Shown piece by piece: positions 1,803 to 11,209 of a stretch of DNA of 58,938 bases. The stretch lies in IMG/VR virus record IMGVR_UViG_3300030114_000013, positions 1 to 58,938 of that record; one strand, given 5' to 3'. Source of the stretch: a virus. The number at the start of each line of letters is the position of its first letter. Positions within the stretch are counted from its first letter, which is position 1. The position numbers and the translations under genes were made by a program. Under the pieces are notes generated by a model. The model ran no database searches. It was not told the origin of the DNA and saw only the letters and a program-made list of their open reading frames with translations.

Positions 1803-4800
1803 ATGAAAGTAATAAAAGAACTAAAAGTTGGAGAAGGCATAAATATTATACAAAGAGAAGGGAAAGATTTAGTATTATCTAAGGAAGGAGGATATAAAAC
1901 AACTTTCACTGATAAAAAAGGAAAAGAGCATAGAAAAAATATATGGAATGCAACTATGGATTGGTGTTTTGATTCAGTTAAAATGAATGAACTAAAAATT
2001 GATAAAGATATGTCCAAGCCTTTTTATATGATTGATGGTAAACAATACTCAGATGCCATAATAAGTGTAAAATTTAAATGTGCAATAAAAGAATCTGAAG
2101 AGATAAATGGATTTAATGAACAATTACTAGAATTAAATAAAACAAATAAAGAACTAGAAACAAAATTAGTAGAACTTAGAAAGCAAGGAATATCATTAAG
2201 ACAATGTAAACATAAAGGAGAATATAAAACTAATCTTACACAAGAACAACAATTATATATTGAATTATATAAAAAACAACAAGATATTACTGAAGAAAAA
2301 AGAAATAAGGTAAAAGAATTAAAAAATCAAAAGAAAAGTGATATACAAAACACTGAACAAATTAGAAAAGAATTATATAAAAATGGATTTGATATAATAG
2401 ATAGTCAAGGTAAAAAATCTCATATGGTTAGATATAAACGTTCTAGTGGTTCTAGTAGAGTTGGAAAATGTTTATTTATAAGAGAAGATTTATATAAGCC
2501 TATGATAGATTGGACTATGATGGATTTATACATAAAAAATGGAGATGAAATTGATTTAGCTAGTTATGAGGCATACATAAGTTTAACACTAAGTTCTATG
2601 ATAGATACTATAGATATAAAACCAGAAAATATACTAATACTTAAAGATGAAGAATCAAAAATAAGAGAAGAATGTATGGTTACTGAACAGATAATAAACA
2701 AAGAAGGAAAAGCAGTATTATGCACAACTAAAAAATATACTGATGTAATAAATAAAATTTGGGATGGAGAAAGTTTGCTTGATAGTAGTTTATTTGAAGA
2801 AAAATATAAGGATAAAGGAATGTTATTGCTAAGAAATAAATTTGTAAAAACATGTGCATTTAATACTAATATTCAGCAATATTATAAAGAATTCAATATA
2901 ACTATGAATGACATAAAAAATAGTAATTGTTATCTTTATACTAAAGCTAAAAAAGTTGAAGACATATTGTTAATAACAACGCCTTCTAGTTTAAAATATT
3001 GTAAATTTGGATTAATTGAAAACTATTTAAGTGACATGAGTTACAAATGGGGAGTTGTTAAATATGACAAACCAACACATTACTTTGATGGAGAATTAGT
3101 CCAAACACATTATCAATTATTAAATTCTCTTAATTGTAATAAAAAAGATATATCAGAAATATTATCTCAAACAAAAGAATACGTAGGTTTATTAAAGAAT
3201 GATATGGCTGTATTAAGGAAGCACTTAAAAATGCAGATAGAACAAAATGAGGATTGTAGATTATCAGATGAAGAGATTGCGACAAGGGAAATAGAAGGGT
3301 TTTACAATGAAGATTATTTAAATATAAACAAAGATAATCATACAAAAGATATGATGTATACTCTATTAACTTTAAACGATAAGATTAAGTTTACTACTGA
3401 ATTCATTAATTTCCAAAAAGATGTTATAAGAGCATACAAAGACAATGCTAGATTAGGGCATATCTTAATTCACGGTAATTATAGCGTATTGTGTGGAAAT
3501 GGAATAGAAATGTTAAAAGGCTCTTGTGGAAAATGGAATATTGAAGACGGTTCAATTATTAAAAAAGGAACAATATACTGTAATAACTTTGAAGAAGTAA
3601 AACTTATAGGTTCAAGAAGTCCTCATCCTTCCCCTAGTTGTATATTTATTTCTAAAAATACAATATACGATGAAATAGATATATATTTTAATAGTAGTAA
3701 ACAAATAGTACATATAAATTCAATAGAAGAGAATAACTTAGAAAAATTATCATCAGCAGATTACGATAGTGACCAAATGCTTCTTAGTGATAATGAAAAA
3801 CTTATTGAAATTGCAGAAAGACATTATAAAGATTATCCTGTATCAGTAAATTGTGTGGTGGGTAAAAAGACTCCTAGATATTATACAGATGAGGACAAAT
3901 GTGATTTAGATGTAAAAACTAGCAAAAATCTTATAGGGCAAATAATAAATCAAGCACAAATTTTAGAGAGTTATTTAAATGATATTAGATTTAAAATAAA
4001 CAAAGAAAAAAATAAAAAAGTTAAACAACAATTGCAAAAAGAAATAGATGATATATTTATTGATATATCTACTTTAAATATAATGTCTTGCATAGAAATA
4101 GACAAAGCTAAAAAAGAATTTGACATTGATAGTGAATCTGAATTAAATAAAATAAAGGATAAATATAGTAATATCAAATTGCCTAATTTCTTTAAATATA
4201 CTGCTAAAAAAACTTATCAAGATAAAAAGGACAAGATAAAAGATAAAATATTAAAGGTTACACCATATGAAAAAGTAGATAAGAACAAGGATACTGAAGA
4301 TATTATCCTAAAAAAGAAAGAAAATAATAAAGTAATTAAAGAGATAATAGATAAAGCAATTTCTTCTATGGAAAAAGAAAAATATGAACATTATAATACT
4401 ACGATGGATTATCTAGAGACTGAAATAGACAAATTTACATATAATAGAAAGACAGACAGAAGAGTTGATAATAAAGACAATATAACTAACATATTAGACT
4501 TATTAACAAATAAATATAAAGAAATATTAAATCATATAAGTGATGCAGATAGAAAACAAATAACTAAAATTATGGACTTAATAATTGATAGTGATAAAAA
4601 AACTAGAGCATTGTGGTGTAATACTAATTTAACTGGTGAAGATAAATATTTTAAAACAATACAATATAGAGTGGAATTGGTAAATAAACTATCTTCATTT
4701 AAAATAAAGTTTGTAACTCTGATATCAATATTAAAACAAATTAAGGAGGGTAAATATAGTAATATAGGAAGAGTTGCATTAAGTGTGCTATATTCTAGTC

Positions 4801-4925
4801 ATAGAGAAATGTTTCTTGAGATGTTCAGAATACAACAAGAAGAAATCGAAATATTGTGTGAGGGAGAAGATATAGAATTATATGGAATGTGTTTTGGCAA
4901 AAAGAAAACTTCTAGAGATATTTAA
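1803..4925 (+). CDS. Putative single-subunit DPBB RNA polymerase (YonO/QDE-1-like)
   Basis: A 1040-residue lysine-rich protein behind a clean AAAGGAG site. Two motifs identify it. First, R605-S-P-H-P-S, preceded by Gly-Ser, resembles the conserved R-x-P-x-x-HPGD segment of cell-type RNA-dependent polymerases and YonO. Second, the acidic triad D653-Y-D655-S-D657, about 45 residues later, matches the D-x-D-G-D metal-binding loop of double-psi beta-barrel polymerases, with Ser replacing Gly. It is followed by a Lys/Asn-rich helix with NLIGQIINQAQ. An N-terminal coiled coil covers about residues 105-190. YonO of phage SPbeta (about 900 residues) is a DNA-dependent RNA polymerase transcribing late phage genes, so the same role is inferred here. 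The HU-like and YonK-like genes nearby also recall the SPbeta yon region. The Ser substitution needs testing. No beta/beta-prime subunit genes are seen. Confidence 0.68.
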   Translation: MKVIKELKVGEGINIIQREGKDLVLSKEGGYKTTFTDKKGKEHRKNIWNATMDWCFDSVKMNELKIDKDMSKPFYMIDGKQYSDAIISVKFKCAIKESEEINGFNEQLLELNKTNKELETKLVELRKQGISLRQCKHKGEYKTNLTQEQQLYIELYKKQQDITEEKRNKVKELKNQKKSDIQNTEQIRKELYKNGFDIIDSQGKKSHMVRYKRSSGSSRVGKCLFIREDLYKPMIDWTMMDLYIKNGDEIDLASYEAYISLTLSSMIDTIDIKPENILILKDEESKIREECMVTEQIINKEGKAVLCTTKKYTDVINKIWDGESLLDSSLFEEKYKDKGMLLLRNKFVKTCAFNTNIQQYYKEFNITMNDIKNSNCYLYTKAKKVEDILLITTPSSLKYCKFGLIENYLSDMSYKWGVVKYDKPTHYFDGELVQTHYQLLNSLNCNKKDISEILSQTKEYVGLLKNDMAVLRKHLKMQIEQNEDCRLSDEEIATREIEGFYNEDYLNINKDNHTKDMMYTLLTLNDKIKFTTEFINFQKDVIRAYKDNARLGHILIHGNYSVLCGNGIEMLKGSCGKWNIEDGSIIKKGTIYCNNFEEVKLIGSRSPHPSPSCIFISKNTIYDEIDIYFNSSKQIVHINSIEENNLEKLSSADYDSDQMLLSDNEKLIEIAERHYKDYPVSVNCVVGKKTPRYYTDEDKCDLDVKTSKNLIGQIINQAQILESYLNDIRFKINKEKNKKVKQQLQKEIDDIFIDISTLNIMSCIEIDKAKKEFDIDSESELNKIKDKYSNIKLPNFFKYTAKKTYQDKKDKIKDKILKVTPYEKVDKNKDTEDIILKKKENNKVIKEIIDKAISSMEKEKYEHYNTTMDYLETEIDKFTYNRKTDRRVDNKDNITNILDLLTNKYKEILNHISDADRKQITKIMDLIIDSDKKTRALWCNTNLTGEDKYFKTIQYRVELVNKLSSFKIKFVTLISILKQIKEGKYSNIGRVALSVLYSSHREMFLEMFRIQQEEIEILCEGEDIELYGMCFGKKKTSRDI

Positions 4926-6333: not shown

Positions 6334-6639
6334 ATGAAGAAAGAACAAGTAATTGAAGTAATTAAGGAAACATTAGGACTAGAAAGTAAGAAGGAAGCAG
6401 AAGGTAAACTTGCTGAATTTGACAAAGTGGTTAAAGCAGTAACAGAAAAATTAGAAGTAAAAGATAAAGCTAGAATTGGGTCATTTGTTGAAGTAGAAAA
6501 GAAGCACGTTGAAGCTAAACATTCAGATGCTAGAGTAGGAAGAAATCCTAAAACTGGAGAACCAATTCAAATAGAAGCTAAGGATACTCCAGCATATGAT
6601 AAAGTAACAATTAAAGGAACTAAGGGTTTAAATAAGTAA
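6334..6639 (+). CDS. HU/IHF-family DNA-binding protein
   Basis: A 101-residue protein with the HU layout: an N-terminal helical half rich in Lys and Glu (KKEQVIEVIKETLG) and then the family signature A-R-x-G-R-N-P-x-T-G-E-P-I-x-I at about residues 69-83, which forms the DNA-embracing arm. Proteins of this family bend and compact DNA as dimers. The helical part is more diverged than in host HU proteins. SPbeta also carries an HU homologue near its YonO polymerase gene, so a role in phage genome packaging or transcription is plausible. The gene is preceded by a folded leader and followed by a probable terminator. Confidence 0.88.
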   Translation: MKKEQVIEVIKETLGLESKKEAEGKLAEFDKVVKAVTEKLEVKDKARIGSFVEVEKKHVEAKHSDARVGRNPKTGEPIQIEAKDTPAYDKVTIKGTKGLNK

Positions 6640-6703: not shown

Positions 6704-6757
6704 ACTATTATTCACTTTACCTTAAAGGTATAAAATATAATAGAGGGAGACTTGAGT

Positions 6758-8209
6758 ATGAGCAAAAAGAAGAAAAGTGAAGAACATGATTTTAGAATTA
6801 CACCATATCACGTAAATAATTCAGTTACAGGTTCAAGTGTACTTTGTGAAGTAGATGGATTAAAAATATTACTTGATTTAGGAATGTTCCAATCACAAAC
6901 GCATAAGTTAGAAGATATTTATAAGATTAATCATAATAAATTAAAAATACCTTTTGATAAATTAGATTACATAATATTATCATCTGGACATGCTGACCAT
7001 TCATGTGGATTAGGAGTTATTGGTAGAAAAGATGTAAAATTTAACGGAAGAGTTATGGCTACAGAGTTATCTGCTGAATTAATAGCTTTAAATGTAAAAG
7101 ATTCTGCACATTTAATGAGTGGAGAATGTGAAGCTTATAATAAGAATCATAATGCCAATTTAATACCTTTATATAATGATAGTGACGCAGAAAATGCTTT
7201 AAGTTATATTCAAGGTTATGGACATAATGAAAAGATAAAATTAAATGACAAAGTTTCATTTGAGTTTTTACCTAATGGACATTTAAGTGGTGATGGTAGT
7301 ATTTATATTACATATCAAAAAGATGAATATACAAAGAAAAGATTACTATATACTGGGGATCACAATTTTGGTAGAGAAAAACCATTCACTAAAAAGTGGG
7401 TAGAAAAATGCTTAAAGGCAGATTGTATAATTAGTGAATCAACCTATAGTGGAAAAGGTCATTTAAAACAAAATAATTTTAAAGTTTTGGAAGATGCAAT
7501 TTTAGATGTATGTGTTAATAAAAAAGAAATTCTATTTATACCAACTTTTGCAATACATAGACAAACAGAAGTAGTATATATGTTAAAACAAATATTTGAT
7601 AAAAATAAGGTATTAAAGAATTCAAATATACCAATTTATTCGGCAGGAGTAATGAGTGCAAAAGCACATAGAATACTAGGTAATCCAAAATATAAATGTT
7701 TCTATGATGAAAAATGGCAAGATTTAGATGATGTTTTTGAATGGGAAGGTGTAACTCATATAGAAAGATTTAAAGATGTATCAGAGAAATTGGTAGATAA
7801 TAAGGTAAAAATAATACTATCAAGTTCAGGTATGCTTAGTGGAGGATATGCAAGTTATTTAGCTAGTTGTTTTGTCAATAGATCTAATGTAAGCTTTTTA
7901 TTCAGTGGCTATCAAGCAATTGGTAGTGTTGGAGATAAGATAATGAGTCAAGAACATAAAACAGTATCTATTCAAGGAAAAGCCTATCTAATTAAAGCTA
8001 ATTCATTAGGTAAGCTAGATTTAAGTGGGCATGCTGGAAATGATGAATTAATAGGTTTAATAAAATCTGTAAATCAAAAAGTATTAAAGAAAATAATTTT
8101 GATACATGGAGATGATGATAGAAAAGAATTATTAAAAGGCCAATTAGAAAAAGTGTTAAATGATAAAGAAATTATTATTCCTAAAGTGGGAGAAGTAATA
8201 AAATTTTAA
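6758..8209 (+). CDS. Beta-CASP metallo-beta-lactamase RNase-like protein (altered motif 2)
   Basis: A 483-residue protein behind AGGGAGA; ATG 6758 is preferred to TTG 6752. Motifs of the CPSF/RNase J superfamily appear in order: the motif-2 region S76-G-H78-A-D80-H81, GH-x-SGD (motif 3), LYTGDH (motif 4), the beta-CASP acid in SESTYSGK, SSSGMLSGG, and a late SGHAG-DEL with IHGDDD. In active members motif 2 reads H-x-H-x-D-H, so the first metal-binding His is Ser here. The remaining ligands are kept, so the protein may bind one metal, have changed activity, or be a non-catalytic binder. It lies beside the YonK-like gene. A role in trimming phage RNA or attacking host RNA is inferred only. Confidence 0.8.
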   Translation: MSKKKKSEEHDFRITPYHVNNSVTGSSVLCEVDGLKILLDLGMFQSQTHKLEDIYKINHNKLKIPFDKLDYIILSSGHADHSCGLGVIGRKDVKFNGRVMATELSAELIALNVKDSAHLMSGECEAYNKNHNANLIPLYNDSDAENALSYIQGYGHNEKIKLNDKVSFEFLPNGHLSGDGSIYITYQKDEYTKKRLLYTGDHNFGREKPFTKKWVEKCLKADCIISESTYSGKGHLKQNNFKVLEDAILDVCVNKKEILFIPTFAIHRQTEVVYMLKQIFDKNKVLKNSNIPIYSAGVMSAKAHRILGNPKYKCFYDEKWQDLDDVFEWEGVTHIERFKDVSEKLVDNKVKIILSSSGMLSGGYASYLASCFVNRSNVSFLFSGYQAIGSVGDKIMSQEHKTVSIQGKAYLIKANSLGKLDLSGHAGNDELIGLIKSVNQKVLKKIILIHGDDDRKELLKGQLEKVLNDKEIIIPKVGEVIKF

Positions 8210-8210
8210 A

Positions 8211-8221
8211 AATAAATTAAT
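8211..8221 (+). repeat. Representative copy of the intercistronic motif AATAAATTAAT
   Basis: This copy lies two bases after the stop of the beta-CASP gene and about 10 bases before the AAAGGAG site of the next gene. Near-identical copies (AAYAAATTAA, mostly followed by T or A) sit at many other gene borders, for example 203-213, 6298-6308, 11215-11224, 13973-13983, 20194-20203, 26873-26882, 27653-27662, 28640-28650, 31805-31814, 44917-44927, 45866-45876, 55889-55899 and 57141-57150. The position and sequence are seen; the function is unknown. Confidence 0.7.
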
Positions 8222-8244: not shown

Positions 8245-8451
8245 ATGGCTAAAAAAGCAATATCAGAAAAGAAGGTAACTACAACAAAATTATCATTAGA
8301 AGGAACTTTAAATTTAGATGAATTATCTGGATTTTTAATGGAATTCGAAGAAGAAGGCGAAAAAAACGTTGATGAAAAGTTAAAGAAATATAACGGTAGA
8401 TATGGTGTATTGACTTTCGCTATTAAAGAGGAAGAAGATATAGAAGATTAG
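8245..8451 (+). CDS. Small acidic protein, possibly YonK-like
   Basis: A 68-residue protein with a basic N-terminus (AKKAISEKK), an acidic centre and a C-terminus reading KKYNGRYGVLTFAIKEEEDIED. The pattern of a short beta-rich protein ending in (F/Y)NGK-x-V-x-I-x-(V/I)KEE resembles SPbeta YonK, a small protein of unknown function encoded near the YonO polymerase. That resemblance is from memory and is modest. A strong AAAGGAGAG site precedes the ATG. The gene is the last one before the structured non-coding block. Confidence 0.6.
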   Translation: MAKKAISEKKVTTTKLSLEGTLNLDELSGFLMEFEEEGEKNVDEKLKKYNGRYGVLTFAIKEEEDIED

Positions 8452-8459
8452 CCGATATA

Positions 8460-9235
8460 AGGCATGTACTCATTGAGAGGTGACCTTAAAACAACTATTT
8501 TACGTTAATCGTCCGAGGGTAACGGGGATATAAATATTTAGAATATTATCCATATGCTTGTGATGGGAATTGCCTACATTAGTCTGAGCCATTAAATTTA
8601 TCGAAGTAGAGATGTGAAACCTACTCGATTCTAGAGTTAACTATGAAAAATCGGTGAGTTTCTACCTTAGTGGTTATTTTATCAAGATGTGGTCTCAGCA
8701 TGTAAAATCAGAGAAAGTTGTGATAATTTCAAACAACTATAAAAAGCTTTCAAGATGGGAAGTCGTGAAATGTGGGAAGGTTATAGCAAATAATATTAGG
8801 ATATAACCAAAGTAATTTTTCGGTGGATTAAAATTATATTATTTAGATGTTATCATAGCATACCAAAAACGAAATAGATAACAATGTGTATCTATTAAGC
8901 AATAAATTAAATGTCGCTTCAAGATTAGGTATTTAATTTGCTTTATAATGGTTTTATGTTTACCAAAACTTGAATAGGATTAACAATCTGAAAGAAAACA
9001 TATGATTTTGAAGATAGGCTTTACGCCAGTGATTTAATAATTAATTAGATAAAACTTGGTTTTCTAGAAACCAGTAGATACATTAAGTTCTATACATCTT
9101 ATATATGTATCATAAAATCTAATGTTTAATAGGGTATGAAAACCTAACAAAATGCTGAATTGAGTTTTGATGACTGAATTAATATAACATTAGACGTAAT
9201 ACAATCATAGCAGGTACGTTAAGCTTGCTTTTTAA
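8460..9235 (+). ncRNA. Large highly structured non-coding RNA candidate (ROOL/GOLLD-like class)
   Basis: Nearly 790 bases without a credible ORF separate 8451 from a tRNA, in a genome whose other gaps are mostly short. The block is packed with stems: TCGAAGTAG (8601-8609) with CTACTCGA (8621-8628); AGTTGT (8716-8721) with ACAACT (8733-8738); GGTTATA (8779-8785) with TATAACC (8802-8808); AATAGATA (8873-8880) with TATCTATT (8889-8896); AAGCAA..ATTAAAT (8897-8912) with ATTTAATTTGCTT (8931-8943); GATACAT (9077-9083) with ATGTATC (9105-9111); and a 9-bp closing stem TCTAATGTT (9118-9126) with AACATTAGA (9186-9194). Giant ornate phage RNAs (ROOL, GOLLD) are known to lie next to phage tRNA genes and have this size. 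Class membership is inferred from size, position and structure, not from a covariance model. Confidence 0.6.
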
Positions 9236-9238
9236 TAT

Positions 9239-9325
9239 GGGTGGATATGTCTAGTGGCGATGACAGCAGACTGTAAATCTGTTACGTAAGAAACAACGTA
9301 GGTTCGACTCCTACTTCACCCACCA
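9239..9325 (+). tRNA. tRNA-Tyr (GTA)
   Basis: A full cloverleaf of class II type. The acceptor GGGTGGA pairs with TTCACCC (one G-U pair); the anticodon arm GCAGA-CTGTAAA-TCTGT gives anticodon GTA; the variable arm is about 15 bases, as expected for bacterial tRNA-Tyr; the T arm is GTAGG-TTCGACT-CCTAC. The CCA end is encoded (9323-9325). It directly follows the structured RNA block, so both may be made as one transcript and separated by processing. Confidence 0.93.
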
Positions 9326-9465
9326 AACAGAGTCTAAGACAGGATTAACGAATTACGATAGTTCTTTGTTAACTGGAAAAGCTTCCGATTATATGATACT
9401 CGAAGTACAAGAGTGTTACCCTATAGAACTAGTGGGTTTACCATACGGATAGGGATTTTAAAATA
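9326..9465 (+). other. Structured segment downstream of tRNA-Tyr
   Basis: About 140 non-coding bases after the tRNA continue the stem-rich character: ACTC...GAGT around 9402-9415, CCCTAT (9419-9424) with ATAGGG (9449-9454), and a GTTAAC-type pair around 9343-9376. A motif copy (AATAAATTAA, 9469-9478) follows before the next gene. It may be the 3' part of the large RNA or its processing signal. Confidence 0.4.
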
Positions 9466-9563
9466 ACAAATAAATTAAATATAAAATAAAGTGAATTCCA
9501 TGAACGTTGATTGTAATGTGCATGGTCATTTTTATTATATTTAAAAAGATGGAGAGAAGAAAT

Positions 9564-9788
9564 ATGGTTATGAAAAACGATGGCAGGGAATCAACAAAAA
9601 TGAAAAAGAATAAACAACATAAGAAATATAAAGACGTTAAATGTAATGACAAAGAATGTCGAGGAATAATTGATGTAGATTTAGCTATTGAGATTGGAGA
9701 TATAGAATATTGCGATACTTCAAAATCAAGTATCTATGTGTATTGTCCAATTTGTGGATTAAATCATAAGGTTGAATTGAAGAAATAA
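9564..9788 (+). CDS. Small zinc-ribbon protein
   Basis: A 74-residue basic protein. ATG 9564 lies 8 bases after GGAGAG, which is better placed than the upstream in-frame ATGs from 9507. Four cysteines form two pairs: KCNDKEC in the middle and YCPICG near the C-terminus, with His after the second pair, consistent with a structural zinc ribbon. The N-terminal 25 residues are very lysine-rich. No enzymatic motif is present. It sits between the tRNA block and the metallophosphoesterase gene, which follows after 26 bases. Confidence 0.6.
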   Translation: MVMKNDGRESTKMKKNKQHKKYKDVKCNDKECRGIIDVDLAIEIGDIEYCDTSKSSIYVYCPICGLNHKVELKK

Positions 9789-9814: not shown

Positions 9815-11209
9815 ATGGAAGATAATAAATCATTAGAAAGACTATATGGTGAAAGTGAAAATGAATATATTGCTAGAGCTTACAGAAATAAAATAGATTT
9901 AGGATTAACAAACAAAGAACTGGCAACTCAATTGAATCAAAATTTGGGCACAAACTATGGAGAATCAACATTACGTGGACGTGGGCAATATTTCAACGAA
10001 GGGTATGAAAACGGATGGGAGAAAGCTTTAAGTAACTTAAAAAATGAAGATTCGGAAGAACTAACTAGTTTGAAATTAAAAAATGACAATGGATATGAAC
10101 AAATTAAAAATTATAAAGAAACTGTTGAAATAAACAAAGATGGTTCTTATACATTAGATAAATTAATAGGTGTGGAAAACGAAGAAGTTTTAAAGGATGA
10201 AAATTATTTATTAACTTGTCATGGATATGATCCTAAGTTATGGCAAATTGTTTCAGCTAGAAATAGTAAATGGAATGTACAATTAAAAGGTGGGAAAGTT
10301 AGTAAACTATATGCTAGTAGAGTTAATATTAAACCTAGAGTTGATGATATTAATATATTAGAATTAGAAGAACATTTTAATAAATTTCAAAAAACATATA
10401 AAGGAATTGATATTCCTAAATTTTCTAATAAAAATGCAGACAACATATTGGTGCTTCCGGTTTACGACTTGCATTTCGGTAAGAAATCTTATGAATATGA
10501 AACAGGAAGTAAAATTGATGATGAAATATTAAAAGAAAGATACATAAATGTTTTAAAAGACATTATTGACCAAGCAAAACATAGTAATTTTGAGAAAATA
10601 ATATATCCAATAGGTAGTGATTTCTTTAATAGTGATACTATAGATAACTCTACTACAAAGGGAACAAGTCAAGATAATAGTTTAAGATGGCAAGAAATGT
10701 TTACTAAAGGATTAGATTTAATTATAGAAGGTGTTGATTTACTGTCTAAAGAATTAAAAACCAAAGTAGAAATATTCTATGTTATGGGAAACCATGATAC
10801 TATGTCTTCTTTTTATGCAACAAGATATTTACATGCGTGGTATAAAGACTGTAATAACGTGTTTATTGACTCAAATGCCAAAGCTAGGAAATATATTGAA
10901 TATGGAAAATGTTTAATAGGATTTACTCATGGAGATAAAGAAGGGAAAAGAATATTTAATTTAATGCAAACCGAACAATCTGAAGCATGGGGAAGAACTA
11001 AGTATAGAGAATGGTTAACTGGTCACGTTCATCATGAAACTGTTAAAGAAGAAGGTGGAGTTAAAGTTAGAACTGTATCTGCTATATGTGGAACTGATGC
11101 TTGGCATTATTTAAGTGGTTTTGTGGGAAGTTTAGAGCAAGTACAAGCTTTTGTTTGGAATAAGAATAAAGGTTTAAGAAGTATTATATATGGAAGTATT
11201 GAGAATTAG
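9815..11209 (+). CDS. Calcineurin-like metallophosphoesterase
   Basis: A 464-residue protein with the complete metal-binding set of the superfamily: D218-x-H220 in VYDLHFGK, GSD269, G-N-H-D at 325-328, and G-H-V-H-H at 403-407. The N-terminal 200 residues are a separate, phage-type domain with a probable helix-turn-helix near residues 30-55 (NKELATQLNQ) and no known catalytic motif. Related phage proteins are often found beside head genes and are thought to act on DNA ends or nucleotides, like SbcD-type nucleases. The substrate cannot be read from the sequence. A good AGGTGAGG site precedes the ATG. Confidence 0.85.
   Translation: MEDNKSLERLYGESENEYIARAYRNKIDLGLTNKELATQLNQNLGTNYGESTLRGRGQYFNEGYENGWEKALSNLKNEDSEELTSLKLKNDNGYEQIKNYKETVEINKDGSYTLDKLIGVENEEVLKDENYLLTCHGYDPKLWQIVSARNSKWNVQLKGGKVSKLYASRVNIKPRVDDINILELEEHFNKFQKTYKGIDIPKFSNKNADNILVLPVYDLHFGKKSYEYETGSKIDDEILKERYINVLKDIIDQAKHSNFEKIIYPIGSDFFNSDTIDNSTTKGTSQDNSLRWQEMFTKGLDLIIEGVDLLSKELKTKVEIFYVMGNHDTMSSFYATRYLHAWYKDCNNVFIDSNAKARKYIEYGKCLIGFTHGDKEGKRIFNLMQTEQSEAWGRTKYREWLTGHVHHETVKEEGGVKVRTVSAICGTDAWHYLSGFVGSLEQVQAFVWNKNKGLRSIIYGSIEN

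Follow-up and report, generated by a model that had tools for sequence, protein, structure and literature searches.

What a block of about 1 kb without a gene does in a phage genome is the question raised by positions 8452-9465 of the window, by which we mean the whole stretch of DNA analysed (58,938 nucleotides, IMG/VR virus record IMGVR_UViG_3300030114_000013; the window features given below are all on the + strand). A sequence-only reading had taken the block for an ornate non-coding RNA with a tRNA-Tyr inside, either a member or relative of the giant phage RNAs ROOL and GOLLD or a new class. Few large structured RNAs are known from phages, and what they do has long been a puzzle. As far as sequence comparison can decide, homologues settle that 8452-9465 is a non-coding and truly structured RNA of about 1 kb.

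The block was said to have no ORF, and indeed no ORF of at least 60 aa lies wholly inside it on either strand; the longest on the + strand has 50 aa and a GTG start (8654-8806). The whole gap between the stop of the upstream small ORF (8451) and the start of the next small ORF (9564) is free of gene-sized + strand ORFs. The tRNA-Tyr was found by both ARAGORN and Rfam at 9239-9325, with anticodon GTA and an encoded CCA end, and the 9-bp stem that had been pointed out is exact, 9118-9126 (TCTAATGTT) pairing with 9186-9194 (AACATTAGA). Folding energy was less telling. The whole region folds at -216.8 kcal/mol compared with -205.4 for shuffles (z -1.7), and 8452-8896 gives a z of +0.2. By energy alone the ornate folding is thus not above chance, and a comparative test was needed; it is the homologues that reveal real structure. 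They also show that the block is real while the unit is slightly longer, from a 5′ hairpin at 8459 to a terminator-like hairpin ending at ~9540.

Homologues were collected with two kinds of pattern. Drum patterns retrieved L060-L062 and L069, and a pattern made from the two most conserved 3′ loops (GAAGTACAA and TAGTGG..CCATANGG) matched 15 viral contigs, three of them by chance: in L146, L150 and L154 it falls inside a long ORF, and these were rejected. Seven independent sequences were compared, namely the window, the L062 group, L069, the L145 group, the L147 group, L152 and L153. All seven share one locus order, in which an upstream nuclease or small ORF is followed by the RNA and then by a small ORF and a YonJ-like gene.

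The 3′ domain (9333-9458, ~125 nt) consists of stems P1-P4 with invariant loops GAAGUACAA and UAGUGG..CCAUANGG, and its stems covary extensively among the seven sequences while the loops stay constant. Since the homologues were fetched with the pattern of two conserved loops, the conservation of these loops is not independent evidence. P1 is formed by AAG/CTT, ATC/GAT, GTC/GAC or CAC/GTG, and P2a and P2b are kept through double changes. P3 is paired in 56 of 56 cells with double changes in seven of eight pairs, P4 in 41 of 42 cells with double changes in all six pairs. The null for this covariation, in which the 3′ arms were permuted, is lenient, as the helices were chosen by eye; the stronger test is therefore a held-out covariance model of the 3′ domain, built from five sequences with the window and L062 excluded. 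In 229 kb this model found the window and the L062 group and nothing else, and its window match was exactly 9333-9458 (64.3 bits, E 2.3e-11).

At the other end, the 5′ terminal hairpin (8459-8487) starts directly after the upstream stop codon and has an AAGG..CCTT outer stem and a CTC/GAG inner stem. It stands just behind the upstream ORF in six phages, where the outer stem is paired in 22 of 24 cells and the covarying inner stem in 18 of 18, with double changes. The adjoining segment TTAAAACAACTA (8486-8497) is also present in L062, L145, L147 and L153, and nearly so in L069. The terminator-like hairpin (9493-9540; CCATG..CATGG, a U-run and a conserved loop AACGTTG) covaries in the window, L069 and L145. 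Together with the tRNA-leader hairpin discussed below, the 5′ hairpin, P1-P4 and the terminator-like hairpin all keep their pairing through double changes. A search by eye for long-range pairs between TTAAAACAACTA and the 3′ domain gave no consistent result. One folded molecule is thus not proved by the comparison, as it yields no pairs that covary between the 5′ hairpin and the 3′ domain.

Between these ends lie several modules. The variable 5′ interior (8498-8827) is conserved in no relative found (no blast match) and has a fold z near 0. It is followed by a drum RNA (RF02958), an Rfam family which the sequence-only reading had not named. The match covers 8897-9006 and the full model (1-112) with 54.7 bits and E 3.8e-9, above the gathering cut-off of 43. 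The extended drum module (8828-9006), 93% identical to L062 over 181 nt, includes a 5′ hairpin (8873-8896), which also precedes stand-alone drums in Lachnospiraceae. A short hairpin block, AGGCTTTACGCC (9004-9034), is 97% identical in L062, where it stands ~110 nt further from the drum than in the window. This block and GGGTAT..TGAATTGAG lie upstream of the drum in L069 and downstream of it in the window. The next module (9030-9132) is common to the window and L069 (85.7% over 105 nt). The 9-bp stem closes 9117-9196; L069 and L153 have its first six pairs too, one of them with a compensatory change, and their loop measures 5-9 nt, where the window has an inserted domain. The tRNA-leader hairpin, GCAGG[UACGUUAAG]CUUGC (9206-9230), which also resembles an intrinsic terminator, covaries in its stem in the three tRNA-bearing phages, and phages without the tRNA have other modules where it would stand. 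A skipping-rope RNA (RF02924) is absent from the window.

The make-up of the locus is mosaic. The RNA is ~450 nt long in L147 and ~1.7 kb in L069. The drum is found in three of the seven sequences (window, L062, L069), the skipping-rope RNA in two (L069, L153), and a tRNA immediately before the 3′ domain in only three (Tyr in the window and L069, Ser in L153). L069 contains skipping-rope, drum and tRNA-Tyr and has the window modules partly in a different order. L062, which lacks the tRNA, is 91% identical to the window at 9333-9463. The neighbouring genes do not follow the same pattern. The window and L147 have nucleases that are 92% identical, yet drum and tRNA are both missing from L147; those of the window and L062 are 25% identical, yet the drum is 93% and the 3′ domain 91% identical. 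Judged by these identities, the RNA modules appear to move independently of the neighbour genes.

The occurrence of the RNA is limited. In L028 the tRNA-Tyr alone remains at the locus, so the RNA is not universal. With YonJ as bait and alignment, ten loci were obtained, mostly without the RNA. The 3′ domain pattern was absent from 391 Clostridia and the 3′ domain model from 68 genomes of one genus; the nuclease as bait found only distant cellular relatives in genomes, and comparing the DNA directly with phage and plasmid records gave matches solely at or beside the tRNA. Three SPβ-like phages (L017:6480-6732, L057:5609-5683 and L028:5719-5805) have tRNA-Asn and tRNA-Pro, tRNA-Thr, or tRNA-Tyr near the locus, with no large RNA there in L028 or L057. 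A 104-kb phage contig (L065:9598-11897) has at least two drum RNAs among tRNA-Thr, -Tyr, -Phe and -Gln, with a skipping-rope RNA nearby. L147 has a second ORF-free stretch of ~590 bases (8987-9575) upstream of the RNA locus.

Such exchange of parts raises the chief rival explanation, a polycistronic array in which independent small RNAs (the drum, a 3′ domain RNA and others) and the tRNA are neighbours or are promptly cut apart. The drum does stand alone in Lachnospiraceae, with a promoter-like sequence of its own, the 5′ hairpin and a terminator, and it also stands alone with promoter and terminator in G260; the modules change order, come and go; the neighbouring gene encodes an RNase-type beta-CASP protein; and RNase P and RNase Z should free the tRNA, which would split the RNA. 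The phage drum, however, has no terminator of its own, and in the window no terminator-like site was seen directly after 9006. The tract invariably has the 5′ hairpin at one end and the 3′ domain at the other, and a single terminator-like hairpin closes it. We consider the array unlikely, though it deserves to be taken seriously.

The genes around the RNA place it in a particular kind of phage. Upstream is a YonO-family phage RNA polymerase (1803-4925), which falls in the same PHROG as SPβ YonO (phrog_8308, E 4.4e-73), direct BLASTP being weak. It is followed by an HU-family DNA-binding protein (6334-6639, PF00216), a beta-CASP/RMMBL metallo-hydrolase of RNase type (6752-8209, PF10996 and PF07521) and a small protein (8245-8451), homologous to small ORFs of L069 and L147 and possibly YonK-like (PF09642, E 0.038, below cut-off). 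In relatives, two very different versions of the nuclease (~25% identical) occupy the place adjoining the RNA. Downstream are a small conserved protein (9564-9788; 88% to L153, 51% to L147), a YonJ-like metallophosphoesterase/exonuclease (9815-11209, phrog_704, E 1.5e-72), and further on ClpP and head genes. In its terminase the phage is 67% identical to SPβ-type phages. Low G+C and the relatives suggest that the phage is of Clostridium type.

SPβ itself has a counterpart at this position, a stable non-coding tract of 1.5-1.7 kb. The yonN-yonK gap of SPBc2 (NC_001884, 59153-60833) is 1.68 kb without a gene; it folds well below shuffles (z -5.8), its G+C is above the phage's own, and among Bacillus phages it is mosaic with a conserved 3′ segment. 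In the SPβ-type phage Goe14, skipping-rope and DUF3800-VIII RNAs are annotated in the same gap. The SPβ tract and L147 have one hairpin module in common, the TAGATGCGTCT hairpin. The 3′ domain model has no match in SPβ, so that the case for kinship between the whole RNA and that of SPβ depends on position and single modules; between the window and SPβ RNAs no homology of sequence or structure was found. In Bacillus phage BUCT082, the 5′ end of the SPβ tract carries a degenerate tRNA-Leu-like element whose anticodon loop is enlarged (L190:7286-7435) and which ARAGORN does not call a tRNA, and a further piece of the tract (L190 ~8112-8217) recurs at ~78% identity in large Bacillus phages, e.g. 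SIOphi and 015DV002.

Could the RNA be a cis regulatory leader of the late operon, acting on YonO or host polymerase by anti-termination, or on the genes behind it? RNAs of this kind exist, the put RNA of phage HK022 being an anti-termination RNA. The window RNA lies directly before YonJ-like and head genes, and the invariant loops of the 5′ hairpin and 3′ domain would suit binding of polymerase or protein. In SPβ, YonO is reported to start the late operon ahead of yonK and of an ncRNA that lacks annotation and receives a half-sentence mention (Forrest et al., PMC5467207); the SPβ tract stands at the start of this YonO-dependent late operon. On the other hand, the length of the RNA varies from ~450 to 1700 nt, it stops at the terminator-like hairpin, short of the next gene, and at least three same-strand genes precede it in the window. 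We judge a leader function improbable.

The reading that we prefer joins the anatomy, covariation, synteny and modularity of the locus with the YonO-family gene and the SPβ tract. It takes the RNA as a modular structured ncRNA of SPβ-like, YonO-encoding phages, belonging to the late region and acting as a stable scaffold or decoy once the tRNA is excised, and as a whole we give it slightly better than an even chance. The RNA would be ~1.08 kb long (8459 to ~9540) and composed of the conserved 5′ hairpin, cassettes (here the drum RNA, several small conserved hairpin modules and the tRNA-Tyr), the conserved 3′ domain and the terminator-like hairpin. It would be transcribed in the late region together with the head and packaging genes, the phage's own YonO-type polymerase being the most likely enzyme. 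RNase P and RNase Z would most likely excise the tRNA, the adjacent nuclease being only a candidate processing enzyme, and the rest may persist through late infection as one stable scaffold or decoy molecule, as proposed for GOLLD and ROOL.

More broadly, YonO-encoding phages of Bacillus and Clostridium relatives may have a common modular giant-RNA locus, a third class of large RNA beside ROOL and GOLLD with fixed ends and exchangeable cassettes, and several orphan Rfam RNAs would then be cassettes of it (drum, skipping-rope, DUF3800-VIII, tRNAs and others are proposed); we put this forward tentatively, at a little under even. The Rfam families drum, skipping-rope and DUF3800-VIII and the mention of the SPβ RNA were already known. 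Neither Rfam nor the open-access papers searched contained the 3′ domain, the 5′ hairpin, the cassette architecture or the link between the Clostridium-type and SPβ loci. Drum RNA has reportedly been described in an earlier paper; as the literature search covered open-access sources, the novelty is provisional. The locus demonstrates cassette exchange inside a non-coding RNA, and drum and skipping-rope, both functionless Rfam families, gain a common genomic setting. Because SPβ of Bacillus subtilis 168 has a counterpart at this locus, and deletions, RNA-seq and structure probing are routine in that system, the question can be addressed by direct experiment.

How, then, does the RNA compare with known systems? 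Membership of ROOL or GOLLD, as first suggested for the block, failed, since neither RF03087 nor RF02032 matches in it at E<=10 (for ROOL, no positive control genome gave a match); the suggestion of a new class is supported, the RNA being covarying, with conserved ends and an exchangeable middle, and at a fixed locus in SPβ-like phages. The two models likewise found nothing at E<=10 in four related records. A divergent true member missed by the Rfam models could still be imagined from the phage origin, the tRNA in the tract and the GOLLD-type plan of a conserved 3′ and a variable 5′ part (PMC12286853), but the modules match other families and we find this very improbable indeed. The likeness to GOLLD and ROOL in habit is real, but it is not kinship. 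ROOL is likewise a large RNA of phages and often lies near tRNA islands, its model being unmatched here. GOLLD occurs in phages and prophages near or around tRNAs, and its layout recurs in the window, with the conserved 3′ domain, variable 5′ part and tRNA in the linker, whereas the 3′ domain is different and the model unmatched. A homo-oligomeric RNA cage is a GOLLD trait. For GOLLD and ROOL a scaffold or decoy role has been put forward, in which these RNAs may enclose tRNAs or ribosomes (PMC12286853). The window RNA is best read as GOLLD-like in habit, of a separate class, and produced with the late genes.

Drum RNA, including its 5′ hairpin, forms the core of the 8828-9006 module; stand-alone units are short with their own promoter and terminator, whereas the window copy is embedded in a longer non-coding tract. 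Skipping-rope RNA is a module of the same locus in L069, L153 and Goe14, unlike in the window. SPβ differs from the window in having no drum, no Clostridium-type 3′ domain and higher G+C, and in gene order, its tract lying before yonK while in the window the nuclease and the possibly YonK-like ORF precede the RNA. Nevertheless, both have a non-coding tract in the interval between the HU and YonJ genes, on the late-gene strand, with a YonO-family polymerase upstream, and the SPβ tract, like the Clostridium-type RNA, has a mosaic interior, made in its case of skipping-rope and DUF3800-VIII modules with a conserved 3′ segment.
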